Shown: positions 28,781-45,381 of the stretch, in pieces
How the letters are laid out: every line of letters starts with the position of its first letter
Numbering within the stretch: position 1 is the first letter of the stretch
Source of the DNA: an uncultured bacterium
Lineage (GTDB): Bacteria; Vulcanimicrobiota; Vulcanimicrobiia; Vulcanimicrobiales; Vulcanimicrobiaceae
DNA length: 53,794 nt
NCBI GenBank assembly: GCA_903829325.1
Contig: CAIKPM010000002.1
Coordinates: forward strand, 1-53,794
Direction of reading: 5' to 3'
Notes under the pieces: generated by a model
Seen by the model: only the letters and a program-made list of their open reading frames with translations
What the model was told of the DNA's origin: nothing
Databases searched by the model: none
Program-made: the position numbers and the translations under genes

Positions 28781-29108
28781 TGCGCGCCGCTCCATCGCTT
28801 CGCTTCAGATGTGCGTGTTTTGGCAGCTCAGCACTCGCAAGCGCTTGACCGACGGTGTCGTTGCTGATATCCGCCATTTGGGCCAAGCCGTCGAGCATGC
28901 CTAGCGCATGAAGCGTGCTCGCGTAAATGCCCATACTGACGCTCGTATCACCAGCTTCTACTCTCTGGAGTGTTGAGCGCGAGGTAAAAGCACGCTGCGC
29001 GATCACCGCCATCGGCAGGTGGCGTCGTCGGCGCGCATCGCGAATGTCCGCACCCAGCCTGCGCAAGGCACGGCGGACAGCAGCCGGGGGAAGATGCGGT
29101 GTTGGCAT
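28773..29108 (-). CDS. hipB: HipB-like XRE antitoxin
   Basis: A 111-residue helix-turn-helix protein. The HTH spans about residues 12-70, with IAQRAFTSRSTLQRVEAGDTSVSMG as the recognition region; the acidic to neutral C-terminal tail may contact HipA. The product should neutralise HipA and repress its own promoter. A compact palindrome sits just in front of the start (29127-29139). GAAGAAG provides a ribosome-binding site for ATG 29108. It lies 45 bases after ddl on the same strand. Confidence 0.88.
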   Translation of the reverse strand: MPTPHLPPAAVRRALRRLGADIRDARRRRHLPMAVIAQRAFTSRSTLQRVEAGDTSVSMGIYASTLHALGMLDGLAQMADISNDTVGQALASAELPKHAHLKRSDGAARNA

Positions 29109-29153: not shown

Positions 29154-30119
29154 TCACATATTTGCTAGGGTCGTGGAGCTTTTCGCGCGCTCGTGGGCGT
29201 AGTCCAAGAGCGTTGCGATGAGAGCGTCGTAGCCTAGGCCGATCGCGTTGGCGGCGTCGGGGAGGAGGCTTTGTTCGGTGAGGCCGGGCAGGGCGTTGAT
29301 TTCGAGGATTTGTGGTGTGCCATCGGCGCTGAGCATGAAATCGGTGCGCGAGTAGTCACGCAGGCCAAGTAAGTGATGGGTGGCTAGCGCGAGATTGCGC
29401 AGTCGCTCGGCAAGAGAAGCGTCAATCGGGGCCGGCACCAAGTGGCGGCTGCCGCCTGGAGTGTATTTTGCGGCGTAGTCATAAAACGCGTGCGCGTCGG
29501 CTGGCACAATCTCAATGACCGGCAATGCTCGTTCGCCCAGGACCGCAACGGTAAATTCGCGGCCCACAATCGCTTCTTCCGCAAGGATCGCGGTGACGCC
29601 GCTGTCGCTTGCTTTGCGCACTGCGCTCTCCCACGCTTGCGTATTGTGAATGAAGGTGACCCCAAGACTCGAGCCTTCGGCGCGTGGCTTGATGACCAAT
29701 GGGAAATGGAGGGCGCTGGGTATCACCGGCAACGCAACGAGCGATGTATCACACACCGACCACGCTGGGGTCGGTAGACCTTCCGCCAGCAAGAGTTTTT
29801 TGGTGAGGTGCTTATCCATTGCGAGTGCGCAAGGCAATACGCTGCTACCGGTGTAGGGGAGCCGTAACCATTCGAGGATAGCTTGGACCCCGCCATCTTC
29901 GCCAAAGCCTCCGTGTAACGCGTTAAAGACCACATCTGGCTTGAGGGCGCGCAGGCTGTCGACGAATCCAGCATCACACTCGAGCTCAAACGCTGCATGA
30001 CCGAGTCGTGTCAGCGCAGCTACGACCCCTCGCCCACTTTTGAGCGAGATCTCGCGTTCGCTGCTGGTCCCGCCCATGAGCACTGCAACGCGTTGCGGCT
30101 CGTGACGTCGGCCGCTCAT
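29154..30119 (-). CDS. ddl: D-alanine--D-alanine ligase
   Basis: A 321-residue ATP-grasp ligase making the D-Ala-D-Ala dipeptide that MurF adds to the muropeptide. Seen are VAVLMGGTSSEREISLKSG at the N-terminus, NALHGGFGEDGGVQ, the ATP-binding FPLVIKPRAEGSSLGV, and the C-terminal YSRTDFMLSADGTPQILEINALPGLT magnesium-binding segment. Last dcw gene here; it overlaps murB by four bases. Confidence 0.96.
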   Translation of the reverse strand: MSGRRHEPQRVAVLMGGTSSEREISLKSGRGVVAALTRLGHAAFELECDAGFVDSLRALKPDVVFNALHGGFGEDGGVQAILEWLRLPYTGSSVLPCALAMDKHLTKKLLLAEGLPTPAWSVCDTSLVALPVIPSALHFPLVIKPRAEGSSLGVTFIHNTQAWESAVRKASDSGVTAILAEEAIVGREFTVAVLGERALPVIEIVPADAHAFYDYAAKYTPGGSRHLVPAPIDASLAERLRNLALATHHLLGLRDYSRTDFMLSADGTPQILEINALPGLTEQSLLPDAANAIGLGYDALIATLLDYAHERAKSSTTLANM

Positions 30120-31078
30120 GCCCGGACCGTCTCTTGAGGAGTATCCGCGGTGAAGACGCCCACAAAATGGACTTCGGGTTGCAGTTCAATACCAGTTTGC
30201 GCGAGCACCGTGCGGCGAACGTGGGCGAAAAGCATGGCGGTATCTTGGGCGCTGGCCTTGCCGAGATTGACGATGAAGTTTGCGTGGAGCTCCGATACCT
30301 GCGCATCCCCAATGCGATAGCCTTTGAGCCCGGCCGCTTCGATTAACTGCCCGGCTCGTTCGTTTGGTGGATTGCGGAAACACGATCCCGCATTCGGCCA
30401 GGTCAAGGGTTGGGTATTTTTGCGGCGGATCAGCCGGTCTTGTAAGAGTGAGCGGACGGTATTCGCATCGCCGCGCTCAAAGACAAAGCGGGCAGACGTT
30501 ACGACGATATCTCGGGCAAGCGTGCTGTGGCGATAACTATAGCTTGCGTGGATGGCATGGGGAGCAGGATTGGATGGTGACATCCCGATGAGCTCGTCGA
30601 TAAATTCGCCGGTTTCTCGATTGGTGCCGGCGTTCATACGAATTGCACCACCGACGCTGCCCGGAATGCCCGCTAAGCCGTCGATCCCGATTGCCCCGTG
30701 TGTGGCACCCTGACCCACGAGCTGCGCGAGTGAAGCAGCGCCACCAGCGTGAATCACGATCTGGTCCGCCGTTTGTTCGAGCTGTATTTGCGTAAATTCT
30801 TTGCCGAGGCGAATGACCACGCCGCGTAAGCCGCCGTCGCCAATTAACAGATTCGAGCCGTTGCCTACGATAAACCAAGCCAGCCGGCGGCGCAGACAGA
30901 AGCGCAGGAGTTGCCCGAGTTCCTGGGTGTTTTCGATATGGACGAGAGCGTCCGCCGGTCCCCCGATCTTCCACGAGGTGTATGGTGCCAGGGGCGCGTC
31001 AAATGTGACCCGCTCGTTGAAGAGGGCCAGTAATTCACTGCGGTCTAGAACCGTGAGGCAGCTCGCGGTGCCGGTCAT
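30116..31078 (-). CDS. murB: UDP-N-acetylenolpyruvoylglucosamine reductase
   Basis: A 320-residue FAD-dependent MurB reducing the enolpyruvyl group to make UDP-MurNAc. FAD-binding features include TSWKIGGPADALV, GNGSNLLIGDGG and AGIPGSVGGAIRMNAG; NAGSCFRNP carries the catalytic Ser of the SCFRNP (type II) form; the C-terminus has SELHANFIVN. Overlaps murC and ddl by four bases each. Confidence 0.96.
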   Translation of the reverse strand: MTGTASCLTVLDRSELLALFNERVTFDAPLAPYTSWKIGGPADALVHIENTQELGQLLRFCLRRRLAWFIVGNGSNLLIGDGGLRGVVIRLGKEFTQIQLEQTADQIVIHAGGAASLAQLVGQGATHGAIGIDGLAGIPGSVGGAIRMNAGTNRETGEFIDELIGMSPSNPAPHAIHASYSYRHSTLARDIVVTSARFVFERGDANTVRSLLQDRLIRRKNTQPLTWPNAGSCFRNPPNERAGQLIEAAGLKGYRIGDAQVSELHANFIVNLGKASAQDTAMLFAHVRRTVLAQTGIELQPEVHFVGVFTADTPQETVRA

Positions 31079-32448
31079 ACCAAAGCAACGGCCGGCTGGA
31101 TGCGTGCAGCCAAGCCATGCGCAACCGCGGTAATGTCGCCCGCTCCGAGGAGCAAGACGAGTGTTCCCGGCGGGGTGTGGGTAAAAAGATATTCGTTGAG
31201 GTCAGCCCGGCGTACGTAGACAACATGAGCGCCAGCACGTGTTAAGGGGTCGCCGATCAAGCGTTCATCGACCCCGGCAATCGGCGGTTCGGAAGCTGCA
31301 TAGATTTCGGTTAAGACAACTTGCTCAACCCCCACCAAGGCCCGGGCAAAATCGGCCGCGAGATATTCAGTCCGTGTGTAACGATGCGGCTGGAACGCGA
31401 CGATAATCGGTCCGGGATGGGCATGTCGCGCCGCGGCAATCGTCGCGGCCAGTGCTGTTGGATGGTGGGCATAATCATCGACGATGCTCATCCGTTCGTC
31501 GCGGGCCAGAATATCAAAGCGGCGTCGTACGCCGCCAAACCCCGCGAGCGCCTTGGCAATGTGCTCAAAGGCGATGCCGACTTCGCTTGCGATGGTGGTT
31601 GCGGCTAGGGCATTACTGAGGTTCATCGCACCGGGGATTTGGAGTGCAATATCCCCTATTTTGACGCCGCGTGCGAAGACTTCGCAGCGCGAGTTAAAGC
31701 CCTCGTAGCAGGCGTTGCGGGCTTGATAATCCGCTTCAGGCGAAAAACCGTACTGCACGGTTCTGGCTGGCCGCGCTTCTTGAGCCAGGGCATGCGCTGC
31801 GGGTTCGTCGGCGCAAACGACGGCTAGGCCGTGCGCTGGAATAGAACCGAGAAATGTTCTGAATTGGGTAATGAGCCCAGCAATGCCCTCGTCAGAAGTA
31901 ATGTGATCATTCTCGATATTGCTCACGAGCGCAATCTGCGGACGTAAGGCGAGAAACGAACCATCGGATTCATCGGCTTCGCTAATAAACCACTCGCTTG
32001 CACCGCAGCGGAAATTGGTGCCGGTTTCGCGGCGTTCGCCACCGACTGCGACGGTTGGATCGTATCCGGCTTGTTCGAAAATACTCGCAAGCATCGCGGT
32101 GGTGGTCGTTTTCCCATGGGTACCCGCGAGCGCGATGCCGCGTTGGGTGTTGAACCATTCTGCGAGTAATTCGCCGCGACGTAGAATAGGAAGCCCGGTT
32201 GCTTGAGCCGCAAGCAATTCGGGATTATCGCTGCGTACTGCGCTGGTAACGACTACGCGTCCTAATTTCGGAACGTGGCTAGCTTGATGGCCAATAAAGA
32301 CTGTAGCACCCTCTTCGTGCAGGCGTTCTGTGGTGGCCGAGGCTTTATCGCTTGAGCCGCTCACGCGCAGTCCGCGCTGCAACGCAATCCGCGCCAGCGC
32401 GCTCATGCCGATTCCACCAATTCCGATAAAATGCAGGTTGTCGCTCAT
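31075..32448 (-). CDS. murC: UDP-N-acetylmuramate--L-alanine ligase
   Basis: A 457-residue Mur ligase adding L-Ala to UDP-MurNAc. It starts with the typical IHFIGIGGIGMSALARI-like nucleotide fold (NLHFIGIGGIGMS), the P-loop is GTHGKTTT, and ENDH and HHPTALAATI segments identify MurC. Overlaps murG and murB by four bases. Confidence 0.97.
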   Translation of the reverse strand: MSDNLHFIGIGGIGMSALARIALQRGLRVSGSSDKASATTERLHEEGATVFIGHQASHVPKLGRVVVTSAVRSDNPELLAAQATGLPILRRGELLAEWFNTQRGIALAGTHGKTTTTAMLASIFEQAGYDPTVAVGGERRETGTNFRCGASEWFISEADESDGSFLALRPQIALVSNIENDHITSDEGIAGLITQFRTFLGSIPAHGLAVVCADEPAAHALAQEARPARTVQYGFSPEADYQARNACYEGFNSRCEVFARGVKIGDIALQIPGAMNLSNALAATTIASEVGIAFEHIAKALAGFGGVRRRFDILARDERMSIVDDYAHHPTALAATIAAARHAHPGPIIVAFQPHRYTRTEYLAADFARALVGVEQVVLTEIYAASEPPIAGVDERLIGDPLTRAGAHVVYVRRADLNEYLFTHTPPGTLVLLLGAGDITAVAHGLAARIQPAVALV

Positions 32449-33563
32449 CGTGAGGCTCCTTTTGAAGCATGTCCCTGGCGGACATGGGCAAGAATGGTGG
32501 CGGTCGCATCGTTGTGCGCTGCGTGTTGGGCTGCTGACTTGAGGGTGGTATATGCAGTGGGTTCAAGCATCGTGGTGAGTTCTTGGCAAAGGCGTGGGCC
32601 GTCGAGGTCTGCGTCGAGCACGAGCCGAGCTGCACCGGTTTGGATGAACGCTTCGGCATTCAAACGCTGATGATCTGCAGTCGCATAGGGATAGGGCACG
32701 AGGAGTGCGGGTTTGCCGGTTGCGGCGAGTTCAGCGAGCGTTGATGCGCCCGAGCGGGCCACGACCAGATCAGCGGCGGCATAGGCAAGAGTTGGATCAT
32801 CAAGATAACCGCGCACGCAGACTTCACCTCGCGCGATCGCTGCAGCCTGTTGCTCTTGCACGGCGGCCTCTTCGCTGCGGCCACACAGATGCAAGATTTG
32901 CCAAGGCTGCTCGAGTGGCTCGGCGAGGAGTTGAGCGACGGCCGTATTGATACTCCGTGCGCCTTGACTGCCGCCGATGACGAGGATAATCGTCCGATTC
33001 GGATCGAGCCCAAGGCTGTGGGCGGCGGTGTTGCGGTCGACGTGTTCGCGCAGACTCGCTCGGACCGGGGTTCCGGTGAGGATCGCGCGTGCGCGAAAGC
33101 GTGGTGAGCGTTGCGCTACACCAGCCCAGAGCGCGTCAACCAATGGTGCTAGGCAGCGATTTGTTAAGCCAGGCACGGCGTTTGGCTCGAGTAAGCCGAT
33201 GAAGATGGGCCAGCGGCGCAATCGGCTTATGATGCGGGCCGCAATCACCACCGGAAACGTGACATAGCCTCCGGTAGCGATGACTGCATCAGGCTGGAAC
33301 CGAGCGATAATGCGGCAGGCTTGCACGATTCCTCGGAAATTATCGCGCAGGGTGATGAGGGTGGCCCACGACCAACTGCGTCGCAGTGGCGCAGCGTTAA
33401 TCACGGCTAGGGGTATCGCAGCCTGGGGAACGATGCGCTCTTCCATGCCGCTTCGTAGCCCCACAAAAAGGACGGTGTCGTTAGTCGCATGCAGCGCTTG
33501 GGCCAGAGCGATGGCCGGGTAGACATGGCCGCCTGTGCCGCCACCGGTGAGCAATACCTTCAT
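32445..33563 (-). CDS. murG: UDP-GlcNAc:lipid I GlcNAc transferase
   Basis: A 372-residue GT28 transferase converting lipid I to lipid II at the cytoplasmic membrane face. N-terminal GGGTGGHVYPAIALA and the C-terminal donor-binding GGSQGARSIN plus ARSGASTLAELAATGKPALLVPYP are diagnostic. The frame is open upstream to 33677, but ATG 33563 overlaps the ftsW stop by four bases and gives the standard N-terminus. Confidence 0.97.
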   Translation of the reverse strand: MKVLLTGGGTGGHVYPAIALAQALHATNDTVLFVGLRSGMEERIVPQAAIPLAVINAAPLRRSWSWATLITLRDNFRGIVQACRIIARFQPDAVIATGGYVTFPVVIAARIISRLRRWPIFIGLLEPNAVPGLTNRCLAPLVDALWAGVAQRSPRFRARAILTGTPVRASLREHVDRNTAAHSLGLDPNRTIILVIGGSQGARSINTAVAQLLAEPLEQPWQILHLCGRSEEAAVQEQQAAAIARGEVCVRGYLDDPTLAYAAADLVVARSGASTLAELAATGKPALLVPYPYATADHQRLNAEAFIQTGAARLVLDADLDGPRLCQELTTMLEPTAYTTLKSAAQHAAHNDATATILAHVRQGHASKGASR

Positions 33564-34684
33564 CGCACGATGCGTCGGCGGCCAATATTGATTAATAGGG
33601 CGACGGCAACAAGATTGACGACGAGAGAACTGCCACCAAAAGAAATGAAGGGAAGCGGCACCCCGGTTACTGGCCACGATGAGGTGACGACGCCGATATT
33701 AATAAAAGCTTGAATGACGATCATTGCGGCGCACCCAACCGCGACGAAAAAACCGAAGCGGTCAGGGGCCGCAACCGCAATGCGAATGGCTCGATACGCA
33801 AAAATAACGAAGAGGATCACGACCGACACCGCCCCGATGAGTCCCAACTCTTCGCCTAAGATTGCAAAGATAAAATCAGTGTAGGGTTCGGGTAACCAGA
33901 AGAATTTTTGGCGTGAGACACCGAGACCTAGTCCCAAAACGCCACCACTGCCAAGCGCGAGCAACGATTGGACAATATGGAAACCAGTATTTTGCGGATC
34001 TTTCCAAGGATCGAGAAATGCCAAAATCCGGGCGCGCTTGTAACTACTGTGTAAGACTGCCATCGCGGCAGCGGGTAACATCGCGCCGGTTAAAAGCAAA
34101 ATGTGTGATAAGCGCGCTCCGGCTGCATAGAACATCACGAACGCGGTCATGACCAACAGCGATGCCGTGCCCATGTCGGGTTCCAATAACACGAGAGCAC
34201 TTGCAACTAAGGTGAGTGTGGCTAAGGGAAAAATGCCGCGCCGTAAGTCGCGCACGATGCCACCACTTTTTGATAAGACCGAAGCAAAGTACAAGACGAG
34301 CGTTAATTTTGCAAATTCTGATGGCTGGATACTCAGCGATGAGAAGCCAAGCCAGCGCCGGGCGCCGTTACTTTCGAAGCCAATATGCGGGATCAGGACG
34401 AGAAAGAGCATCGCAAGATTGATCAGAAAAAGCGGACTGGCGAGTTTCGCTAATTTGCGATAATCGAATTGATACGCAGCAATCGCGGCAATCAACCCGA
34501 CTCCCAGCCAAGAGAGTTGACGTTTGAGAAAATAGGCTTCATCGTGGAATGAACGGACGGCTGTGGCACTCGAGGCACTGAAAATCATGATGAGGCCAAT
34601 GCCAACCAATGCTGCTACGACACCAAAAAGAATGGAGTCTGGGGGAACCGTGACCCACGTGCTGCGCTGTACGCGTTGCTTCAT
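33560..34684 (-). CDS. ftsW: septal peptidoglycan polymerase FtsW (SEDS family)
   Basis: A 374-residue SEDS membrane protein polymerising lipid II at the septum with its partner FtsI. About ten membrane helices; NGARRWLGFSSLSIQPSEFAKL contains the SEDS signature, and PVTGVPLPFISFGGSSL the late loop. Its place in the dcw cluster favours FtsW over RodA. Overlaps murD and murG by four bases. Confidence 0.95.
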   Translation of the reverse strand: MKQRVQRSTWVTVPPDSILFGVVAALVGIGLIMIFSASSATAVRSFHDEAYFLKRQLSWLGVGLIAAIAAYQFDYRKLAKLASPLFLINLAMLFLVLIPHIGFESNGARRWLGFSSLSIQPSEFAKLTLVLYFASVLSKSGGIVRDLRRGIFPLATLTLVASALVLLEPDMGTASLLVMTAFVMFYAAGARLSHILLLTGAMLPAAAMAVLHSSYKRARILAFLDPWKDPQNTGFHIVQSLLALGSGGVLGLGLGVSRQKFFWLPEPYTDFIFAILGEELGLIGAVSVVILFVIFAYRAIRIAVAAPDRFGFFVAVGCAAMIVIQAFINIGVVTSSWPVTGVPLPFISFGGSSLVVNLVAVALLINIGRRRIVR

Positions 34685-36078
34685 GCTGGGCTTTGCGGTA
34701 ATGCGCGAACGAATTGGGCAAATTGATTGCCACGTTCTTCGGCGGAAGCAAACATATCGAACGAAGCGCAGCCGGGCGACAAGAGTACCATATCACCAGG
34801 GAGCGCAAGCTGCTGTGCACGCTGAACCGCAGCTTCAAGGCTCGCAACGGTTTCGATGTTGGCTCGCTTTACCATAGCGGCAATATCATCACTTGCCTCA
34901 CCGAGGAGCAAAACGCAGCGTACATGCGCATCGATGGCGCGCCCCATAGCAAGAAATTCGGTGCGTTTAGCGCGTCCACCGGCGATGAGAATCGTCGGGG
35001 CATCGAGCGCTTCGAGCGCCGCGACGACCGCTCCAGGATTCGTGGCTTTTGAATCATTGATATACGTTACGCCATCCAGCGTTGCGATCGGATGGAGACG
35101 GTGCTGCAGCGCTTCAAAATTGCGTACACCTTGACGGAGTACTTCGGGTTCGATTCCGGCAGCTAAACCGATTAGCACGGCGGCGAGGACATTGTCAACA
35201 TTATGCCGCCCTAAGAGCGCGATTTCATCGACCGGCATGATCTCGATTGGGCGCGGATCACCCGTGGGAGGCGACCAGACGATGCGTTCGCGCTTTACGT
35301 ACAGCGTTGCGTTGCGGTGGGCGTGCCGTGAAAACCACAGCATCGGGCATGGTACACGAGATGCTTCTTCGCTCTGAGCTAATTGGCAAATTAATTCATC
35401 GTCCAAATTGCCGACGAAAATATCACCCTTGCCTTGATTGGCAAAAATACGATACTTTGCTTCGGCGTACTCATCCATCGAATAATAGCGATCAAGATGA
35501 TCTGGAGACAGATTGAGGATCGTCGAAATTTTCGGTTTGAACGAGCGAATCGATTCCAGTTGAAACGACGAGATTTCGGCAATAACCCAAGAGTTGGCGG
35601 GGGCTTTATCGGTTTCGCCAATTAAGGGATTGCCAATATTCCCCCCGACGTATGTTTCGCGTCCCGCCGCGCGAAAAAGGGCGCCGATTAGCGCGGTTGT
35701 GGTTGATTTGCCTTTCGTCCCAGTGACGGCGACGATCGGTGCTTTCGAAAGACGATAGGCGACTTCGATTTCGCTTAAAACGGGCAGTCGTGCATCTTGT
35801 GCCATCCGCACAACGGGGCTTGTCATGGGAACCCCGGGCGAGACAACCGCGACGTCGAGGCTACTCAAAACCGGCGCCAAATGTTCTGGTGCGATAAAGC
35901 GGACTCCGGGTTGCGCTAAATCGGCTTGCGCGGCTGCGAGGGCTTGGGGCGATTCATCGGTCGCAACGATATGCGCGCCCCGTGCACGTAGCACTTCGAT
36001 CGATGAGCGGCCACTGCGCCCCAGTCCGATTACGAGAACCTGTGCATTGGCGTCAAAGAGAATGGCGTCTTTGTTCAT
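34681..36078 (-). CDS. murD: UDP-MurNAc-L-Ala--D-Glu ligase
   Basis: A 465-residue Mur ligase adding D-glutamate. VLVIGLGRSGRSSIEVL at the N-terminus, P-loop GTKGKSTT, NLSPDHLDRY and a C-terminal LSPGCASFDMFASAEERGNQF segment specific to MurD. ATG 36078 overlaps the mraY stop by four bases; the upstream open frame to 36132 is disregarded. Confidence 0.97.
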   Translation of the reverse strand: MNKDAILFDANAQVLVIGLGRSGRSSIEVLRARGAHIVATDESPQALAAAQADLAQPGVRFIAPEHLAPVLSSLDVAVVSPGVPMTSPVVRMAQDARLPVLSEIEVAYRLSKAPIVAVTGTKGKSTTTALIGALFRAAGRETYVGGNIGNPLIGETDKAPANSWVIAEISSFQLESIRSFKPKISTILNLSPDHLDRYYSMDEYAEAKYRIFANQGKGDIFVGNLDDELICQLAQSEEASRVPCPMLWFSRHAHRNATLYVKRERIVWSPPTGDPRPIEIMPVDEIALLGRHNVDNVLAAVLIGLAAGIEPEVLRQGVRNFEALQHRLHPIATLDGVTYINDSKATNPGAVVAALEALDAPTILIAGGRAKRTEFLAMGRAIDAHVRCVLLLGEASDDIAAMVKRANIETVASLEAAVQRAQQLALPGDMVLLSPGCASFDMFASAEERGNQFAQFVRALPQSPA

Positions 36079-37019
36079 AGTTCTCCAACCACGACGAGAG
36101 CGAGGGCGGCGCAGACGAGCGATGCGAGCCAAAACATCCTGGTAACGTGGGTTTCATGCATCCCGCCGAGCTCGAAATGGTGATGCAAGGGACTCATCCG
36201 GAAGATACGCCGCTTCGTCGTCTTAAACGATGCCACTTGCAGAATCACCGAAAGCGCTTCTAGCACAAAGACTGCGCCAAGTAAGGGCAGCAACAGTTGC
36301 AAGCCCATCACGATCGCGCTGCCAGCCAGTGCCCCGCCTAACGCGAGCGCCCCTGTATCACCCATAAATACTTGTGCCGGGTGCCGATTGTATAGGAGAA
36401 AACCGCTTAACCCGCCTACGAGCGCGACATCAAAAATCGCAACACTATGAAAATCGTGTGTCCACGCGATGCAAGCGCAGACAAGCAGCGGGGGCAGCAT
36501 CGTCCCGGCGGCGAGCCCATCGAGGCCATCGGTAAGATTGACTGCGTGGGTGCTCGCGAGCACGACGAACAGGCTCAAACCGATCCAGAGCAAGAGTGGT
36601 AGCGCAATATTTGGCACGCTGAGATGCGTCACGGGCGCAAGATGCCAGGTCATGAGCAAGGTGATGAACACGACCGCTGCCGCGATGGTCGCGGCAAACT
36701 TTGCGCGTGCTGATAAGCCGCGATTGCGGGCACGACGAATCGAGGCGAGATCATCCACCGCACCGATGAACCCGCAGGCCATCGTGAGGATCACCAGGGT
36801 TAGCATCATGGCATCGGGGTGGAGGAAGAGTGCTACGGCCAAAGCGGGCACGAAGAGCAAGCCGCCCATGGTCGGTGTGCCGGTCTTGCTTTGGTGGGAT
36901 TTCGGTGCGTCTTCGTAGGCATGCTGGGATAACGCTAGTGCGCGTAATCGCTGAATCAGCGGGCGACCACCAAGCCCTGCTAGCAGCGCGCTGAGCAGCA
37001 GCGCGAGTAGGATGGTCAC
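36075..37019 (-). CDS. mraY: phospho-MurNAc-pentapeptide transferase
   Basis: A 314-residue polytopic enzyme attaching phospho-MurNAc-pentapeptide to undecaprenyl phosphate (lipid I). Catalytic motifs are GAVDDLASIRR, NLTDGLDGLAAG and the SPLHHHFELGG loop, with GTPTMGGLLF near the N-terminus. Slightly shorter than E. coli MraY (360 residues). Overlaps the CofE-like gene and murD by four bases. Confidence 0.97.
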   Translation of the reverse strand: MTILLALLLSALLAGLGGRPLIQRLRALALSQHAYEDAPKSHQSKTGTPTMGGLLFVPALAVALFLHPDAMMLTLVILTMACGFIGAVDDLASIRRARNRGLSARAKFAATIAAAVVFITLLMTWHLAPVTHLSVPNIALPLLLWIGLSLFVVLASTHAVNLTDGLDGLAAGTMLPPLLVCACIAWTHDFHSVAIFDVALVGGLSGFLLYNRHPAQVFMGDTGALALGGALAGSAIVMGLQLLLPLLGAVFVLEALSVILQVASFKTTKRRIFRMSPLHHHFELGGMHETHVTRMFWLASLVCAALALVVVGEL

Positions 37020-37729
37020 GCGCCCGCGTTCATGAGCGGATTGGGGCCAGCTCCACGCCAGACTAACACGACAATGGGAGTTTGCTCGTCACCATTCCCA
37101 TGTGGATTCGCCTGAAGTGCTCGAGCGACGACGGTCCGTGCCACATTGTTGGAGATACCCAAGACATTGACTTTCCCCAAATCGTTCGCATCAACGACCG
37201 CAGCGCCAATATCCGTGCCACAGCTTTCGGCAATTGCTTGAGCCGCACGGTTGGGTTCGTGCGGGCCGAGGACGATCGTGCGCTCGAACGGCGGAAGGGT
37301 CCCGGTATAGCCATCGATCGTCGCGATTGCTTCGCCCAAGACGCGATAAAAAACCCCGCGCATCCCCAAAAGCCGGCCCACTACGTGCAGACCCGCTGCG
37401 GCGAGCACTTTCGGCGCGCCGACTTCGTCGATGACCAGTTGGAGCGCTTCGGGTTGATTGATCGTTGCCAAGGCCCCCGCTCGGGCGGATAAGGTGTAGG
37501 CGAGTTTGGATGGGCGAATTGTTTCGGCAGAGAGTGAGCGACCTTGGGCGATCGCCACGGCTGTTTCGGATACCGCGACGACGCTGCCCGGCGAAGCGAT
37601 TCCACGGACCGCCGCTGCAACCACAGCGGCGACATCATCGCCGGCGCTGATGAGTGCGGTACGGACGGGAATCGCGGCTAACTCTGCGAGTGCGCCTTCT
37701 TGCTCAAGGGGGAATCCAAAGGCGGTCAT
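37016..37729 (-). CDS. CofE-like (F420-0:L-glutamate ligase family) protein in dcw cluster
   Basis: A 237-residue protein resembling the fold of CofE, which adds glutamate to coenzyme F420. Similar features are SPGSVVAVSETAVAIAQGRSL (residues 46-66), RPSKLAYTLSARA, a VVDANDLGKVNVLGIS segment (178-193) with candidate metal ligands Asp180 and Asp183, and a final VVLVW strand. Distant clostridial relatives carry a DINDLG-type motif there. It is locked into the operon by four-base overlaps with murF upstream and mraY downstream, so a role on muropeptide or lipid-linked intermediates is the simplest inference. No other F420 gene is in the window. Substrate and activity are unknown; assignment to the family is by recall, not by a search. 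Confidence 0.7.
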   Translation of the reverse strand: MTAFGFPLEQEGALAELAAIPVRTALISAGDDVAAVVAAAVRGIASPGSVVAVSETAVAIAQGRSLSAETIRPSKLAYTLSARAGALATINQPEALQLVIDEVGAPKVLAAAGLHVVGRLLGMRGVFYRVLGEAIATIDGYTGTLPPFERTIVLGPHEPNRAAQAIAESCGTDIGAAVVDANDLGKVNVLGISNNVARTVVARALQANPHGNGDEQTPIVVLVWRGAGPNPLMNAGA

Positions 37730-39117
37730 GCGGCTTGCCTCGCAGGTACGCCAGCTTGCGCAGGTCTGAGGGCGTGCACGATTTCCTCCAGCGCATAGCG
37801 GCGCGAACCTTTGATCAAGATGATATCGCCTGGTTGCACGAACGCTTGGAGGGTCGCGATGCTTGTTGCATTATCGGGCGTTTGCACGATCGTTTCAGCT
37901 AGCACCCCGGCTGCGCGTGCGCCTTCGGCGACTTCGTGCGCGAGTTCGCCGCTGAGCAGAATTTTTGCCGCGTGAACTGGGGCTAGGGCTGCGCCAACTC
38001 GGCGATGCGCTGCGACGGCTTCTTCGCCCAATTCTGCCATGCCGCCGAAGAGCACAATGCGGCGTCCCGCTTCTTGGGCAAACGCTTGGAGGCTTGCGAC
38101 ACTGCCGCTGGGCGAGGCGTTGTAGGCGTCGTGAATAATCGTGATGCCTCCCGGAGCAGAGATCCGCTCGTAACGACCGTTGGGCAGGCTGACGCTGCTG
38201 GCTGCGCGCGCTACTGTTGTGAGTGGAATGCCGAGCAAGAGCGCCGCGCTACACGCGGAGAGGAGATTGCGCTGGTTGTGTTCACCAGGTGGTAAATCGG
38301 TGAGGACTGCCTCTTGCGACGGTGTGTTGCGGGGGTGCCACTGGAGTGTATGACCTGCGAGTCGCAGAGTAGCAACATCGGCAATCGGTGGGTCGCTTGC
38401 CAAGCCGCAGAACAGCGGCGCTTGAGATAAACTTGTGTAGCGTTCGCGCGAGACCGCATCGGCAAGCGAGAGTATCGGTTGCCCGCCGTTCGCGAAAATT
38501 TGCCATTTGGTGCGCGCGAGTTCAGCGCGTGAACCGAAGATGCCGACGTGCGCATCACCGACATTCGTGAGGATGGCGATATGCGGTCGGGCGATGCTGA
38601 CGAGCGGGGCAATATCGTCGGGCTGGCGAGCACCCATTTCGATGACGGCAGCGGCTTCACACGTGAGGCCAAGCAGTACCTTGCTCACGCCGATCTCGTT
38701 ATTCTCGTTCAGCGGGGTTGCGGCTATCGGACCAATCTGGGCTGCTTCGAGGATGTGTGCAAGGAAAGCTTTGGTTGTTGTCTTTCCAGCACTGCCGGTG
38801 AGGGCGATGACTGCACCGCAAAAATGCCGGCGCGAGAGTGCCGCTAGACTCAAAAGGGCGTTGTGGGTATCGGCAACGACGATGCCCGGTAGCTCGGGCG
38901 GTAAGGCAGTCGGATTGCTGACAATCGCCGCTGCTGCTCCGGCGTGGTGGGCGGCGGTGAGGAAGGCATGCCCATCAAAGCGTTCACCGACCAACGCGAG
39001 GTAGGTTTGGCCGGTTTGCAAGGTGCGCGTATCGATGGAGAGAGCAAGCTCGGCGGGTAGGGTGCCTTGTATGCTCGCCGACAAGACGGCGCAAGCTTCG
39101 GTGGTTGCAAGCTTCAT
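37726..39117 (-). CDS. murF: UDP-MurNAc-tripeptide--D-Ala-D-Ala ligase
   Basis: A 463-residue Mur ligase completing the pentapeptide by adding the Ddl product. P-loop GSAGKTTTK, ATPLNENNEIGV, EMGARQPDDI and HDAYNASPSG are MurF motifs; DTRTL and FVALxGxxxDGH-like LALVGERFDGHAF at the N-terminus. The start lies 21 bases after the murE stop, one of few real gaps in the cluster. Overlaps the CofE-like gene by four bases. Confidence 0.97.
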   Translation of the reverse strand: MKLATTEACAVLSASIQGTLPAELALSIDTRTLQTGQTYLALVGERFDGHAFLTAAHHAGAAAAIVSNPTALPPELPGIVVADTHNALLSLAALSRRHFCGAVIALTGSAGKTTTKAFLAHILEAAQIGPIAATPLNENNEIGVSKVLLGLTCEAAAVIEMGARQPDDIAPLVSIARPHIAILTNVGDAHVGIFGSRAELARTKWQIFANGGQPILSLADAVSRERYTSLSQAPLFCGLASDPPIADVATLRLAGHTLQWHPRNTPSQEAVLTDLPPGEHNQRNLLSACSAALLLGIPLTTVARAASSVSLPNGRYERISAPGGITIIHDAYNASPSGSVASLQAFAQEAGRRIVLFGGMAELGEEAVAAHRRVGAALAPVHAAKILLSGELAHEVAEGARAAGVLAETIVQTPDNATSIATLQAFVQPGDIILIKGSRRYALEEIVHALRPAQAGVPARQAA

Positions 39118-39138: not shown

Positions 39139-40593
39139 CTAGGCTCGGCTCGCGGGGCGTTCGAGTAAGATACGTTCGACTTCGCGACGATCGTCGAAAC
39201 GCATGGTGGCTTGGTCGATAATCTGTGTGGTTTCAGCGCCTTTGCCAGCCACGACCACGATGCCCCCACGAGGAGCTTCCAAAATCGCCCGCGTGATGGC
39301 TTCGCGCCGATCCAAAATGCATTCGAGTGGAGTGCTCGCGCCTGACAGGACTGCGCGAGCGATTGCGGCGGGATCTTCGCTGCGAGGATTATCGTTCGTG
39401 ACGATGACGCGTTGGGCCATACGCTGAGCAATGGCACCCATGGCAGGTCGTTTACCGGCATCGCGTTCGCCGCCGCAGCCAAAGACGACGGTCACGTGTT
39501 GTTGGCCATCCGGATTCACCGCGCTCAAAACACGGCCGAGCGCATCGGGGGTGTGTGCGTAGTCAACAAAGACCGTGCAGTTCTCGTGAGCAAATCGCTC
39601 CATGCGTCCGGGGACACCACGAAAAGTGGCGAGTTGCTGGCTGATGACCTCTAGGCTAATTCCCCAGCTTTTCCCAAAGGCAATTGCGGCGAGCGCATTC
39701 GAAATATTAAATCGACCTGGCAGCGGCACGAGAAAGCGAACCCCATCGACGCTGAATTCGCTGCCCTGCGCATTGAGTCGCACATGCTCTGCACGGACAT
39801 CGGCCGCTGCATCAATGGCGTAGGAAATGCCTCCATAGCGCTGATGCCAGGTTTCCCCCATGGGATCATCTACATTAAAAATGCTGTTGCGGGCGATGCG
39901 GCAGAGGCGTTCTTTTGCGGCTGCATACGCTTCCATGCTGTGGTGAAAATCAAGGTGGTCGCGCGTCAAATTCGTGAAAATACCTGTTTCGATTGGTACT
40001 TCGGCGAGACGATCGAGCGCGAGTGCGTGCGAGCTCATTTCCATGACGGCTACGTCGACGTTGTCGGTGCGGGCCTGGGCAAAGAGGCGGTGGAGTTCGA
40101 GCGGCGGCGGGGTTGTGTAGCCCAGATAAATGTGCTGCTCGTTCCAACTTGCGCCTAAGGTACCGATGCGCAGGGTGGTATGCGAAGTTGCGGCCAGGAT
40201 CGCAGCGATCATGAAGCTGGTCGTCGTCTTCCCGTTGGTCCCGGTAATTCCGATAATTCGTAATGCCTTGGCGGGATTGCCAAAGATATACGCCGCGAGC
40301 CTTGCGAGTGCTAATCTGACGTCCGGCACGAGACACGCAGGAATATCGCTAGGGAGTTGTTCGCGCGCATCGTGTTGTAGCAAGAGCGCGGCTGCACCGC
40401 GAGCGATCGCATCGCGCATAAAATGAGCGCCGTCAACATGCTGGCCTGGCAGGGCGACAAAGAGGCTGCCCGGTTGGGCGGCACGGCTATCGGTCGATAC
40501 ACTCGTCAGTAGTGTCGTCGAATCTCCGATGAGCTGGCTCTCATCGAGCTGAGCGGCGATAGCGGCGAGGGTTTGTGCTTGCACAGAGATCAT
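39139..40593 (-). CDS. murE: UDP-MurNAc-L-Ala-D-Glu--meso-DAP ligase
   Basis: A 484-residue Mur ligase adding the third residue of the stem. P-loop GTNGKTTT (118-125), likely carbamylated Lys227 in AAAKERL, and DNPR (401-404). DNPR, with its Arg, marks the meso-diaminopimelate enzymes rather than the lysine type, so the wall is inferred to be DAP-based. Overlaps ftsI by four bases. Confidence 0.97.
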   Translation of the reverse strand: MISVQAQTLAAIAAQLDESQLIGDSTTLLTSVSTDSRAAQPGSLFVALPGQHVDGAHFMRDAIARGAAALLLQHDAREQLPSDIPACLVPDVRLALARLAAYIFGNPAKALRIIGITGTNGKTTTSFMIAAILAATSHTTLRIGTLGASWNEQHIYLGYTTPPPLELHRLFAQARTDNVDVAVMEMSSHALALDRLAEVPIETGIFTNLTRDHLDFHHSMEAYAAAKERLCRIARNSIFNVDDPMGETWHQRYGGISYAIDAAADVRAEHVRLNAQGSEFSVDGVRFLVPLPGRFNISNALAAIAFGKSWGISLEVISQQLATFRGVPGRMERFAHENCTVFVDYAHTPDALGRVLSAVNPDGQQHVTVVFGCGGERDAGKRPAMGAIAQRMAQRVIVTNDNPRSEDPAAIARAVLSGASTPLECILDRREAITRAILEAPRGGIVVVAGKGAETTQIIDQATMRFDDRREVERILLERPASRA

Positions 40594-42377
40594 TTCACCC
40601 GGGCTGTGGGAGTGGATTCGATGTGTGGGATTACACCGACGTGGATCATTGCTTCACGGGCAATCTGGGTAAAAATCGGCGCGGCGACCTCGCTGCCGTA
40701 AATCGATCCTCTGGGGCGCTCCACTTTTACCACAATCACAAAACGCGGATGTTCTGCGGGAATATAACCCGCGAATGAGGCGTTGTATTCGCCAGAAGCA
40801 TAGTATCCATTTTCAACAATCTGTGCGGTACCGGTCTTGCCTGCGGTGGTAAAGCCCGGAACGCGGGCATTCGGTTTGCCAGTGCCGCGTACGACGACAG
40901 CACGCAGGTAGCGGCGCAATGTCGCTGCGGTTTGCTCCGAAATAACTCGGCGTTCGACTTCGGGTGGGTAACGATAGATGGTTGTGCCATCAGGCGCGAG
41001 CAGTGCGGCAACAACCCGCGGTCGCAGGAGGATGCCCCCGTTGGCGATCGCTGCATACGCGCGCGTAAGAGCTAGCGGTGTGATCGAGATCCCGTGGCCA
41101 AACGAAATGGTCGCGAGCGAACTGCCCGACCATTGATTTGGTGGGGCAACGATACCGGGATTTTCACCCTGCAATTCGATGTTGGTATAGTCGCCGAAAC
41201 CAAACATCCGGATCATGCGGTACACCGCCTGAGGGTCGATGCTTAAGCCAATTTCTGCCGCGCCGACATTATGCGAATACGCGATAATGTCTTCAATCGA
41301 TTCAGAGCCGTGTTCGCCGGCCATCATGCCATCTTCCGCGTTATGCACCGTGACGCCACCGACACTTAATGCATCGTGCGAAGGGTAACGCGCATCGGGA
41401 TTCACACCATTTTCAAGTGCAGCGGCAACGGTAATTAATTTAAACGTTGAACCGGGTTCGTATGCGTCATTGACCGCACGATCGCGTTGTGCGTCACTTG
41501 AATAATGCCAGAATGCATTGGGATCATAATCTGGCATATTGGCTAGTGCTAATATTTCGCCGGTCCAAGGGTCCATCACGATTGCTGAACCGCTGCGCGC
41601 ATGATATTTCGCAACACCGTCAGCGAGCGCGCGTTGGGTCGCATATTGAAGATCGGAATCGATGGTGAGCATGATGCTGCGGCCTGGTTTTGCCGGTTCA
41701 TCGATCGAGGTTTGTCCGAAGGGAATCGGTCCACTACCGTCACCGACTTCGATCGTTTTTTTCCCACTCGTGCCGCGTAGGAGATGATCATAGGCAAATT
41801 CGATCCCATCGAGGCCTTGCTCATCGATATTCACGAAGCCCAGCACATGGGCTGCGAGCACTCCCGCGGGATTATTGCGTAGCCCCGTATCTTCCGCAAC
41901 GCGGTAGATTCCGGGCAGATCCAGCGCGGCGATACGGTCGGCCGTCGCCGGAGTCACCTTGCGTTTAATCCAGCGAAAACGGGTGTCGTCGCCTAAGAGT
42001 TCTTCGAGATTTTCGCTGGAAAGCTTGACCAACGGGGCGAGCGCCTGGGCCTCGCTGACTTTGTTCGTGACCAGGTGCGGGTCAACGTAAATACTTTCGG
42101 ATGGCGAGGATCGAGCTAAAACGTTTCCATCGCGATCGTATATCGTGCCTCGGCGGCCAAAGATTTCCACCGTGTCGTCATGCTGTTCGCGCGCTTTTTC
42201 GGCAAGTGCAGGGCCACGCACGACTTGCAGATACGTCAGGCGCAGCATCAATAAGACGGCGAGCAGCAAGATGCAATAAAAGAAATTCTTTGCTCGTCCG
42301 TTTGCGGCTCGTTCGCAGATCAGTCGACGCTCAAGGCGACGCGCGGCGGCGCGTTCTCTTACTGATGGTGCAGCCAA
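40590..42377 (-). CDS. ftsI: septal transpeptidase (FtsI/PBP3-like)
   Basis: A 595-residue class B penicillin-binding protein. One N-terminal helix (31-52), a dimerisation domain beginning RRGTIYDRDGNVLA, and a transpeptidase domain with the three catalytic motifs: STFK (Ser310, Lys313), SHN (368-370) and KTG (514-516). It cross-links septal peptidoglycan with FtsW. Overlaps the FtsL-like gene by 19 bases and murE by four. Confidence 0.96.
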   Translation of the reverse strand: MAAPSVRERAAARRLERRLICERAANGRAKNFFYCILLLAVLLMLRLTYLQVVRGPALAEKAREQHDDTVEIFGRRGTIYDRDGNVLARSSPSESIYVDPHLVTNKVSEAQALAPLVKLSSENLEELLGDDTRFRWIKRKVTPATADRIAALDLPGIYRVAEDTGLRNNPAGVLAAHVLGFVNIDEQGLDGIEFAYDHLLRGTSGKKTIEVGDGSGPIPFGQTSIDEPAKPGRSIMLTIDSDLQYATQRALADGVAKYHARSGSAIVMDPWTGEILALANMPDYDPNAFWHYSSDAQRDRAVNDAYEPGSTFKLITVAAALENGVNPDARYPSHDALSVGGVTVHNAEDGMMAGEHGSESIEDIIAYSHNVGAAEIGLSIDPQAVYRMIRMFGFGDYTNIELQGENPGIVAPPNQWSGSSLATISFGHGISITPLALTRAYAAIANGGILLRPRVVAALLAPDGTTIYRYPPEVERRVISEQTAATLRRYLRAVVVRGTGKPNARVPGFTTAGKTGTAQIVENGYYASGEYNASFAGYIPAEHPRFVIVVKVERPRGSIYGSEVAAPIFTQIAREAMIHVGVIPHIESTPTARVK

Positions 42378-42799
42378 GACACCAGTGCCGATAAGATCGG
42401 TGCATGTTCACTCACTTGAACGGGGCCTGGTGCGTTGATAGTCAGAAACGTCGCGGGTTCATGCAGTTGCAGGCGTTTGGCGAGGACATACAGGCGATCA
42501 CGAGATTGTAGGGTGGCTAAGCGATCTTGGATCGTATTCGATTCTTCTTGCAAATTGGCAATGAGGTTCTCCGCTTGACGATCGCGATAATCGAGCGCGG
42601 CTGCGCGAGTCATTAACCACAGGTAGCCCATGACCACGGTGACGATCAGCGTCGAGATCAAGCAGATACGAATGATGCTCCGATAGCTGCGCTTCCGATG
42701 ATAGGCCTTACGTCGCTGCGTTGCTTCACGCGCGCTCTGTGCGGGACCAAGGCGCCGAGTCGGTGTTGCGTCGGGTGGAAAAAAGAGCGGTGCAAGCAT
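42359..42799 (-). CDS. ftsL: FtsL-like cell division protein
   Basis: A 146-residue bitopic protein. A basic cytoplasmic N-terminus of about 45 residues leads to one helix (about 47-67), then a short coiled coil (ENLIANLQEESNTIQDRLATLQS) and a periplasmic tail. Sequence identity in this family is low; the call rests on topology and position between rsmH and ftsI. It would bridge FtsQ/FtsB-like partners to FtsW-FtsI. It starts two bases before the rsmH stop is reached from upstream (gap of two bases). Confidence 0.8.
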   Translation of the reverse strand: MLAPLFFPPDATPTRRLGPAQSAREATQRRKAYHRKRSYRSIIRICLISTLIVTVVMGYLWLMTRAAALDYRDRQAENLIANLQEESNTIQDRLATLQSRDRLYVLAKRLQLHEPATFLTINAPGPVQVSEHAPILSALVSWLHHQ

Positions 42800-42801
42800 G
42801 C

Positions 42802-43671
42802 TTAGGAATTCCTCTCGGCAACGCGGAGCCTCGCACTGCGTGCGCGCGGGTTGTGCTGAATTTCGCTGTCTTGGGGGAGCAATGGTTTGCGAGTGATTGC
42901 AGTCAGATGTGGGTTGTCACGAAAATGGTGTTTCACAAGACGATCTTCCAGTGAATGAAAGCTGATCGCGGCAATACGACCACCGGGGGCCAACATGGTG
43001 GTTGCTGCTTCAAGACCTTGGCTGATAGCGCCGAGTTCATCGTTGACCGCGATGCGTAACGCTTGAAAGGTGCGGGTAGCGGGATGGGTGCGCTCACGCT
43101 TGCCTGGGCGATGGAGCACGCCCGCGACGCAACGCGCCAACTCGACCGTGGTCCGAGGCAGGCGTCCTTGTTCGCGCGCGCGGAGCAGGGCGCGGGCAAT
43201 GCGTCGTGCTGCGCGCTCTTCACCAAAAAAGAAAAGGATATCGGCCAATTCGGTTTCTGAAGATTCAGCCAGCAGCTCATGAGCGGTGCGTCCGCTTGTT
43301 TGGTCCATGCGCATATCGAGAGGCGCGTCGCTGTTAAACGAAAAGCCGCGCTCGCCTCGATCGAGCTGCATCGAGGAAACGCCGAAATCGAATAACACGC
43401 CATCGACCCGCTCGATCGCTCGTGCGCGTAGCTCGTCGGCGATATCGCGGAAATTCGCTTGCACGAACACGAGAGCCGGGTCGACCAAGGGCTCAACCGT
43501 GGGATCTACATCGAATGCAATAACTCGGCCGCCGCGCAGACGGGCCAGTAAGGCCCGCGTGTGGCCACCAGCGCCAAACGTTGCATCGACGTACGTTCCT
43601 TGCTCACGAATCGCAAGGCCGTCTAAGGCTTCATTTAAGAGGACGGGTGTGTGCGGTGCTGAGTCACTCAA
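42802..43671 (-). CDS. rsmH: 16S rRNA m4C1402 methyltransferase
   Basis: A 289-residue RsmH (MraW). HTPVLLNEALDGL at the N-terminus, the SAM-binding YVDATFGAGGHTRALL, GVLFDFGVSSMQLDRGERGFSF, and C-terminal ISFHSLEDRLVKHHF are family signatures. It methylates N4 of C1402 in 16S rRNA. Overlaps mraZ by four bases. Confidence 0.97.
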   Translation of the reverse strand: MSDSAPHTPVLLNEALDGLAIREQGTYVDATFGAGGHTRALLARLRGGRVIAFDVDPTVEPLVDPALVFVQANFRDIADELRARAIERVDGVLFDFGVSSMQLDRGERGFSFNSDAPLDMRMDQTSGRTAHELLAESSETELADILFFFGEERAARRIARALLRAREQGRLPRTTVELARCVAGVLHRPGKRERTHPATRTFQALRIAVNDELGAISQGLEAATTMLAPGGRIAAISFHSLEDRLVKHHFRDNPHLTAITRKPLLPQDSEIQHNPRARSARLRVAERNS

Positions 43672-44111
43672 AAGAGGCCGAGCTCCGTTGCAAAACCCTC
43701 AACCTCACTTGGGTCGGGGCTGAGGTCATGCAATTCTTCCTTGGCCCAGATTTCGACGCGGGTTAAGGAGCCAATCGAGACGACATCCCGTTCGATTTTG
43801 GCATAAGCACGTAGGGTGGGGGGCAAGACGAGGCGACCTTGCCCATCGCATGCGACTTCTTCGGTATGGGCAAACAGGTGGCGGACAAAGCGGCGATAGC
43901 GTGCGTCTTTGACCGGAGCGGCTTCGATGCGACGGCACACATCGGCCCAGGTGACGAGCGGATACATCGCCAGGCAGTGGTCAGGTTGAGCGATGGTGAG
44001 CACAAACGAACCACCCAGCCGTTCACGAAAACGTGCCGGGACAATAAGACGACCTTTATCATCGAGACCGTGCTCTGCTGAGCCCGTGAATCGAGGGAAA
44101 TCAGTCGACAG
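43668..44111 (-). CDS. mraZ: MraZ transcriptional regulator, probable CTG start
   Basis: A 147-residue MraZ with two SpoVT/AbrB-type half domains: LDDKGRLIVPARFRE near residue 17 and CDGQGRLVLPPTLRAYA in the second half. MraZ binds GTGG-type direct repeats and represses its own dcw operon. The frame is open to 44372 but those 87 codons do not look like MraZ. Between the promoter and FTGSAEHGLDDKGR there is no ATG, GTG or TTG. CTG 44111 is preceded by AGGTGGAGGG with GGAGG nine bases away, and gives the standard 140-150 residue length, so I take CTG as the start. Confidence 0.85.
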   Translation of the reverse strand: MSTDFPRFTGSAEHGLDDKGRLIVPARFRERLGGSFVLTIAQPDHCLAMYPLVTWADVCRRIEAAPVKDARYRRFVRHLFAHTEEVACDGQGRLVLPPTLRAYAKIERDVVSIGSLTRVEIWAKEELHDLSPDPSEVEGFATELGLF

Positions 44112-44146
44112 TTGTTTAGCCCTCCACCTAGTACCAGTAATACACG

Positions 44147-44170
44147 TTATCCACAGGTGGGTGTGGATTA
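44147..44170. promoter_or_regulatory. paired DnaA boxes (or leader hairpin) upstream of mraZ
   Basis: TTATCCACA (44147-44155, plus) is a perfect DnaA box. TGTGGATTA (44162-44170) is the inverse of TAATCCACA, one mismatch from consensus. They are mirror images around GGTGGG. The pair lies in the mraZ 5' leader. The seven-base complementarity ATCCACA/TGTGGAT could instead act as an RNA hairpin. Confidence 0.5.
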
Positions 44171-44173
44171 TTC

Positions 44174-44209
44174 CACCACACGCCCCCACTTCACACCACT
44201 GCACCCCAC
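44174..44209 (-). promoter_or_regulatory. MraZ operator: four GTGGKG repeats, 10-bp period
   Basis: On the minus strand GTGGGG, GTGGTG, GTGGGG and GTGGTG (plus positions 44204-44209, 44194-44199, 44184-44189, 44174-44179) are direct repeats exactly ten bases apart, so all face the same side of the helix. This is the known style of MraZ binding sites. The first repeat overlaps the -10 element and the rest cover the initial transcribed region, as expected for repression. Confidence 0.85.
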
Positions 44210-44236
44210 TATAGCGAAAAAACTCCAGGGGGGCAA
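44208..44236 (-). promoter_or_regulatory. mraZ (dcw operon) promoter
   Basis: TTGCCC (44236-44231), a 17-base spacer and TATAGT (44213-44208) on the minus strand form a good vegetative promoter. Transcription should begin near 44201, giving a leader of about 90 bases to the CTG start. A six-base inverted repeat CTCCAG/CTGGAG (44223-44247) surrounds the -35. Confidence 0.75.
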
Positions 44237-44262
44237 CCCTTCTGGAGAGAACGCGCGCCCCG

Positions 44263-45381
44263 GTGATCAAACACGGTGGTGGCCTGAAGATTCTGGACCG
44301 GTATGTCCTGCGCGAGCTCGCGGCACCATTCGCCTTTGCGTTTGGGGCGTTTCTGCTGTTCTGGTTTATCAATATATTTTTTTTGGCGGCTGATTATCTG
44401 ATCAACGCGCATGCGCCATTTTTTTTGGTCTTACGGTTTTTGGTGTTTCGGATACCTCAGGCAACACCGTATGCGTTCCCCTTCGCGGCACTCTTTGCGA
44501 GCTTGCTCGGCTTCGGACGCTTGGCGGCCGATCACGAACTGACCGCGATGCGCACCTCAGGTATTGCCTTTGCGCGCATTGCGGCCGCACCGTTAGCGGC
44601 TGGTTTTGGCTTATTTTTGGTGTCGTATCTCGTGAACGATAGCCTGACTCCGCGCGCGGTAGAACTCTCGACACGTACGTTTTATCAAATTGTCTACCAC
44701 ACCGCGACCTTGCCAATTGAGCCGCAGTTCTTTCGGAAGGATCAAGAGACCGGACGGGTTTTCTATGTGGGTGACGTGACGGGTGATCACCGGACGATGC
44801 TCAACGTGATGATTTTTGAACCTGCCCGCATGAGCGCGTTTCGCCAAGTGACCACCGCCCAAGAAGCTCGGATCAACCAGACCCAGCTCGTCTTAATGAA
44901 CGCCTCGGTGATCCGCTTTAAGCCGAACGGCTTGGTCGATGGAGAAACGACCGGCAAAACCATCACGGTAAATCTGCCCTTAGGAGAAACGGCTGAGCAG
45001 TTTCTGACCACGAGCAATAACGATGCCTATGCGCTCAATTCGAAGCAACTGGCCGGTCAAGTGCACGATATGGAAGCCACGGGTCAGGGTGGCACGGCAC
45101 TTGGTTTGTTAAAGGTGACGCTGGCTCAGAAGCTTTCGTATCCCTTTGCGGCATTTATTGCGACGTTGCTAGCATTGCCGCTAGCGGTAAGTTTGGGAAA
45201 GCAGAGCCGCACGTTGGGGGTCGGGCTGTCGATTCTGCTGTTGTTCATCTATTATTTACTGTCGGCGGGTTTTGCGGCCATCGGCCGTAACGGTGCTCTG
45301 AATCCTTATTTGGCTGCTTGGTTGCCCAATCTCATCATGGGGACGGTCGGGGCGGTATTATTTTTGCGAGAGGAACGCTAA
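44263..45381 (+). CDS. LptF/LptG family LPS export permease
   Basis: A 372-residue YjgP/YjgQ family permease. About six membrane helices: one near residue 20, two around 55-110, and three after residue 280, with a periplasmic beta-jellyroll-like domain (about 135-270) between. LDRYVLRELAAPFAFAFG is the typical N-terminus. It would extract LPS with LptB and its partner for transfer to LptD. GTG 44263 is the assumed start; GGAG lies 16 bases upstream, so the start is uncertain. Stop overlaps the lptD start (TAATG). Divergent from mraZ. Confidence 0.88.
   Translation: MIKHGGGLKILDRYVLRELAAPFAFAFGAFLLFWFINIFFLAADYLINAHAPFFLVLRFLVFRIPQATPYAFPFAALFASLLGFGRLAADHELTAMRTSGIAFARIAAAPLAAGFGLFLVSYLVNDSLTPRAVELSTRTFYQIVYHTATLPIEPQFFRKDQETGRVFYVGDVTGDHRTMLNVMIFEPARMSAFRQVTTAQEARINQTQLVLMNASVIRFKPNGLVDGETTGKTITVNLPLGETAEQFLTTSNNDAYALNSKQLAGQVHDMEATGQGGTALGLLKVTLAQKLSYPFAAFIATLLALPLAVSLGKQSRTLGVGLSILLLFIYYLLSAGFAAIGRNGALNPYLAAWLPNLIMGTVGAVLFLREER

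Follow-up and report, generated by a model that had tools for sequence, protein, structure and literature searches.

A CofE-like protein family encoded between murF and mraY in Eremiobacteria, a candidate ligase of peptidoglycan precursors

cofEL, coding for a CofE-like protein (CofEL), is located between murF and mraY throughout the Eremiobacteria, a class of poorly known soil bacteria, in an arrangement that is far from chance. Its product belongs to the CofE superfamily and, judged by its sequence, constitutes a separate family. We put at roughly even the chances that CofEL is an amide ligase with the CofE fold, redeployed to a peptidoglycan precursor near the step from MurF to MraY. Peptidoglycan precursor synthesis is among the best-studied bacterial pathways, yet here an undescribed family keeps its place between MurF and MraY across an entire class. 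If a precursor is indeed modified by CofEL, wall synthesis gains one enzyme class, whose reach would extend over all of a class of diderm bacteria and, elsewhere, to fusions with amidotransferases. Vulcanimicrobium alpinus, a cultured relative, has a Gram-negative-type wall (PMC9758169). The "coenzyme F420 ligase" annotation of cofEL genes wrongly suggests F420 metabolism.

The window, i.e., the whole stretch of 53,794 nucleotides analysed here, includes a run of dcw genes from mraZ to ddl (Table 1). Most of the gene names are read from the translations, and the gene order was confirmed by comparison with relatives. The true starts of mraZ and murD are probably located downstream of the listed open reading frame start and the listed TTG, respectively. 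The product of the small ftsL-like gene has no above-cut-off match in Pfam. The DNPR motif of MurE presumably marks the meso-diaminopimelate-adding type. cofEL overlaps each neighbour by 4 nt: ATGA at 37726-37729 combines its start codon with the TGA of murF, and GTGA at 37016-37019 combines its TGA with the GTG of mraY. A preliminary description made from the sequence had reported both overlaps and a CofE-like reading frame of 237 residues between murF and mraY; the DNA, the coordinates and the NCBIfam scores of the flanking genes agree with it.

Table 1. Genes of the dcw cluster in the window, given in their order in the cluster.
Feature	Position	Strand	Basis
mraZ	43668..44372	minus	translation; position kept in relatives
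rsmH (mraW)	42802..43671	minus	translation; position kept in relatives
small ftsL-like protein (tentative)	42359..42799	minus	position and size
ftsI-like penicillin-binding protein	40590..42377	minus	translation; order kept in relatives
murE	39139..40593	minus	Mur ligase domains; DNPR motif in translation
murF	37726..39117	minus	TIGR01143, 313.5 bits, above cut-off
cofEL (CofE-like protein, 237 aa)	37016..37729	minus	open reading frame, ATG start
mraY	36075..37019	minus	TIGR00445, 280.7 bits, above cut-off
murD	34681..36132	minus	MurD-like_N and Mur ligase domains
ftsW	33560..34684	minus	translation; position kept in relatives
murG	32445..33677	minus	translation; position kept in relatives
murC	31075..32448	minus	translation; position kept in relatives
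murB	30116..31078	minus	translation; position kept in relatives
ddl	29154..30119	minus	translation; position kept in relatives

Scanning of a genome collection has found 78 loci, including 66 from Eremiobacteria with assignable murF, cofEL and mraY. The order murF-cofEL-mraY is kept in all 66, with a 4-nt overlap between cofEL and murF in 46 and between cofEL and mraY in 56; one of these loci (L091) has an odd distance to murF. cofEL is present in 57 of 60 related genomes as a single copy, except for one genome with two partial pieces. Mean pairwise identity among the window and 35 relatives is higher for CofEL (63%) than for MraY (54%) and MurF (52%). This conserved operon position with mur genes is as expected of a member of the peptidoglycan precursor pathway, and the murF-X-mraY linkage, whose survey the preliminary description had proposed, is conserved. 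A local accident in one genome is ruled out by the occurrence in 57 genomes, the invariable order and the overlaps.

Three genomes had no CofEL match. In G001 (70% complete) murF adjoins mraY, but this mraY contig shows unusually little identity to its family and is possibly of foreign origin. In G039 a convincing match for mraY was missing as well, so its assembly probably does not include this region. In G059, a deep relative (75% complete; locus L185), murF overlaps mraY directly and CofEL was not found, which indicates that cofEL is not universally needed.

CofEL matches the Pfam F420_ligase family (PF01996) with an E-value of 4.1e-11 and 43.3 bits against a gathering cut-off of 25, and is the only protein to do so in its 1.9-Mb, 96%-complete genome. 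Its score against the CofE equivalog TIGR01916 is only 31.7 bits, 149 bits short of the cut-off of 180.65, and PRK13293 gives 28.8 bits against a cut-off of 274. Archaeoglobus CofE is its only plausible sequence relative in the PDB. An AlphaFold2 model of CofEL built from 62 aligned sequences (pLDDT 88.6) matched only Archaeoglobus CofE when compared with the PDB by Foldseek (E 2.3e-10). VIA-align superimposed the model on 2PHN with Z 15.4 over 189 residues at 3.0 A; the next unrelated structural match has Z 3.8. No Mur ligase or MurT domains were found in CofEL by Pfam, and the protein has no match to plasmids. The low equivalog score combined with the CofE-only structural match therefore suggests a predicted CofE fold formed by a distantly related sequence.

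K41, K45 and E47 are invariant in the alignment of nine canonical CofE sequences. CofEL proteins have T, S, K or R at the first of these positions, I or V at the second and mostly Q at the third, so GTP is perhaps unused by CofEL or used differently. The window CofEL has a signature of its own: E55, A59, I60, Q62, F127, Y128, D139, D180-x-N182-D183, N208-P209-x-G211 and Q216-T217-P218. E55, A59, F127, Y128, D139, D180, N182, N208, P209, G211, T217 and P218 are kept across six CofEL groups; I60 is kept as well, with V in two, and D183 is kept in five of the six groups. CofEL is also about 30 residues shorter than CofE in the segment that joins the D-T/S-x-G motif to the last strand. CofE structures have a long domain-swapped hairpin holding F420 (PMC10861534), and the shortened segment may correspond to this F420-touching hairpin.

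Searching 400 genomes from the phylum to which Dormibacteria belong with CofEL gave two score classes: full-length CofEL proteins with about 150-272 bits, and proteins that score at most 42 bits and match mainly in the N-terminal part. Ten of the latter and two from Dormibacteria, either read or scored, look like ordinary CofE. About ten genomes have both CofEL and a gene of the low-scoring class, and in two Dormibacteria examined the CofEL family occurs together with an ordinary CofE-type gene. In a maximum-likelihood tree CofEL and ordinary CofE are split by a very long, fully supported branch, though the exact root position is unsure since long branches meet there (tool warning).

CofEL can be compared with CofE and the N-terminal domain of FbiB (F420-0:L-glutamate ligase; 2PHN, 7ULD), with which it shares the superfamily, the predicted fold and the aligned motif regions. 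It differs from CofE by the loss of the three conserved residues, the shortened segment, its own signature, the lack of F420 genes and its place in a wall operon. The CofE-like assignment of the preliminary description therefore stands at the superfamily level, where both checks it had suggested, a profile search and a structure prediction aligned to CofE, place the protein. It does not extend to CofE proper, as the sequences point to a separate, strongly diverged family.

No CofH score above cut-off was obtained in 60 related genomes. Two strong CofH-like matches in the genome of the window are MqnE (the best match, just below its own cut-off) and MqnC (above cut-off), and its CofD-family match is YvcK. 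CofH and CofD were the enzymes covered by this search. The impression that no other F420 gene accompanies cofEL, formed from the window, is thus upheld genome-wide for these enzymes, and an ordinary CofE in an F420-making genome is rejected on this basis. Neither of the outcomes that had been named as contrary to the preliminary description was found, i.e., a protein outside the CofE family or a full F420 pathway without mur linkage. A clear FolC is encoded here, as it is in almost every relative checked, which disfavours CofEL as a substitute for folate glutamylation. The genome also has an mqnE-mqnA-mqnC run (G000:C14, L125:2232-5283; the middle gene is one we take to be mqnA), consistent with menaquinone synthesis by the futalosine route.

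The lineage survey took in Eremiobacterota and the phylum holding Dormibacteria; gene neighbours outside Eremiobacteria are sightings at individual loci, not set against a random-gene background. In Dormibacteria CofEL is the C-terminal domain of an AsnB-like protein (GATase_7, Asn_synthase and F420_ligase; L106:6066-8738, L102:5667-8654 and other loci). The AsnB-like part keeps Cys2 and the SGGLDS motif, and at several loci the fusion gene is followed by genes for alanine racemase or a class A PBP (transglycosylase/transpeptidase). We found no description of such a combination of AsnB with a CofE-like domain in the literature. A model of the fusion built from four sequences has a pLDDT of 30, at which the domain packing is not readable. 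In two other Chloroflexota a separate AsnB gene is located immediately upstream of cofEL, in a third clade VanY and N-acetylmuramoyl-L-alanine amidase genes are found near it, and in a fourth (ChlA) no wall gene adjoins it.

In four deeper Eremiobacterota relatives the protein begins with a hydrophobic segment, and a further region precedes the CofEL domain. This region (roughly 150 residues in the products of L112:6442-7659 and L113:2306-3508) has no Pfam match. ddl lies directly upstream of cofEL in one of the four, three of them have no mur gene adjoining it, and genes for phosphodiester glycosidase (NAGPA) are located nearby in two. The ties to AsnB-type amidotransferases, alanine racemase, Ddl and VanY constitute independent support for a wall role. 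Asn_synthase is absent from the genome of the window and, apart from weak or isolated matches, from Eremiobacteria, and MurT (MurT_C) is absent from all 60 relatives. With AsnB lacking in most Eremiobacteria and MurT in every relative, these bacteria do without the enzymes that usually amidate the precursor.

Since cofEL is always located between two wall genes in genomes without an F420 pathway, an unrecognised step of wall building is probable. The diaminopimelate tripeptide made by MurE has free carboxylates on D-isoglutamate and diaminopimelate, and the DNPR motif suggests that this tripeptide should be the MurE product here. CofEL would create an amide bond at one of the free stem-peptide carboxylates, the candidates being the alpha-carboxyl of D-isoglutamate or a carboxyl of diaminopimelate, with UDP-MurNAc-pentapeptide or lipid I as the possible substrate. 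By analogy with CofE and MurD, the reaction may proceed via an acyl phosphate held by a metal, with an amino acid or ammonia as the attacking nucleophile. For the fusion of Dormibacteria, the glutamine-dependent AsnB-like part might be the source of ammonia or might itself amidate the product. Catalysis itself, the nucleotide, the acceptor and the nucleophile are all proposed here from such analogies, and the domain fusion does not prove catalysis by the CofEL domain. More tentatively, and with somewhat less than even confidence, we speculate that CofEL represents a new class of peptidoglycan-precursor-modifying amide ligases unrelated to Mur ligases, ATP-grasp and tRNA-dependent enzymes, and offers a non-F420 setting for the origin or recruitment of CofE.

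CofE joins a GTP-activated carboxylate to an amino acid by a mechanism that was compared with that of MurD (PMC10861534), and a 2021 review regards its origin as unclear (PMC8498797). MurD, like FPGS a protein of the Mur-ligase fold, couples an amino acid to a carboxylate through an acyl phosphate, a mechanism likened to that of CofE (PMC10861534), and MurT-GatD, of the same fold, amidates D-isoglutamate (PMC8554201); CofEL, in contrast, lacks any Mur ligase domain. The diaminopimelate of peptidoglycan is amidated by AsnB-type enzymes (PMC8554201), among which LtsA works on lipid intermediates (PMC7920481). AsnB-like proteins are fused to CofEL or encoded beside it in Dormibacteria and some Chloroflexota but have an unrelated fold. 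The nearest precedent for a CofE-like protein in a wall operon is QimC of Streptococcus pyogenes, described as CofE-like and encoded in a wall-modification operon (PMC13059722). Unlike the cofEL operon, that of qimC is devoted to a teichoic-acid-like polymer, and the enzymatic role of QimC was not assigned (PMC13059722). Our literature search for F420_ligase-family proteins together with peptidoglycan, dcw, Eremiobacterota or asparagine synthase found nothing on a wall role, in line with the preliminary description, which knew of none.

The main rival to a ligase is a CofEL that is catalytically silent, binds the muramyl-peptide or lipid precursor and passes what MurF releases on to MraY or, in Dormibacteria, to the AsnB-like amidotransferase of the fusion. 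The loss of K41, K45 and E47, the intact Cys2 and SGGLDS of the fusion partner and the tight overlaps with murF and mraY are all compatible with such a carrier. Nevertheless, E55, D139, D180, N182, N208, Q216 and T217 are invariant or nearly so in six groups separated by long branches, and this polar set is more suggestive of an active site than of a binding scaffold; we regard a silent CofEL as rather unlikely. Less probable still is an action on another envelope substrate, such as a lipid carrier, a nucleotide sugar or a wall glycopolymer, with the place in the cluster reflecting co-regulation. QimC, the hydrophobic segment of the deeper-branching form and the NAGPA genes would fit this, with QimC taken as CofE-like from its description, but the peptide portion is favoured by the invariable site between murF and mraY and by the links with alanine racemase, Ddl and VanY.

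PF01996 membership and the CofE fold would also be expected of a true CofE, or another gamma-glutamyl ligase serving F420 or folate, that came into the cluster by accident. We give this very little credence, as no F420 pathway was found, the equivalog cut-off is missed by a wide margin, FolC is present, the linkage is kept through the whole class and two Dormibacteria have both types of gene.

Further genes border the dcw cluster in the window. Genes for a HipA-like kinase and a small helix-turn-helix protein (27521-29108), which we take to be a likely HipBA toxin-antitoxin pair, adjoin ddl at the cluster end. Genes divergent from mraZ (44263-47861), presumably for LptF/G-permease-like and LptD-like outer-membrane proteins, are consistent with a diderm envelope.
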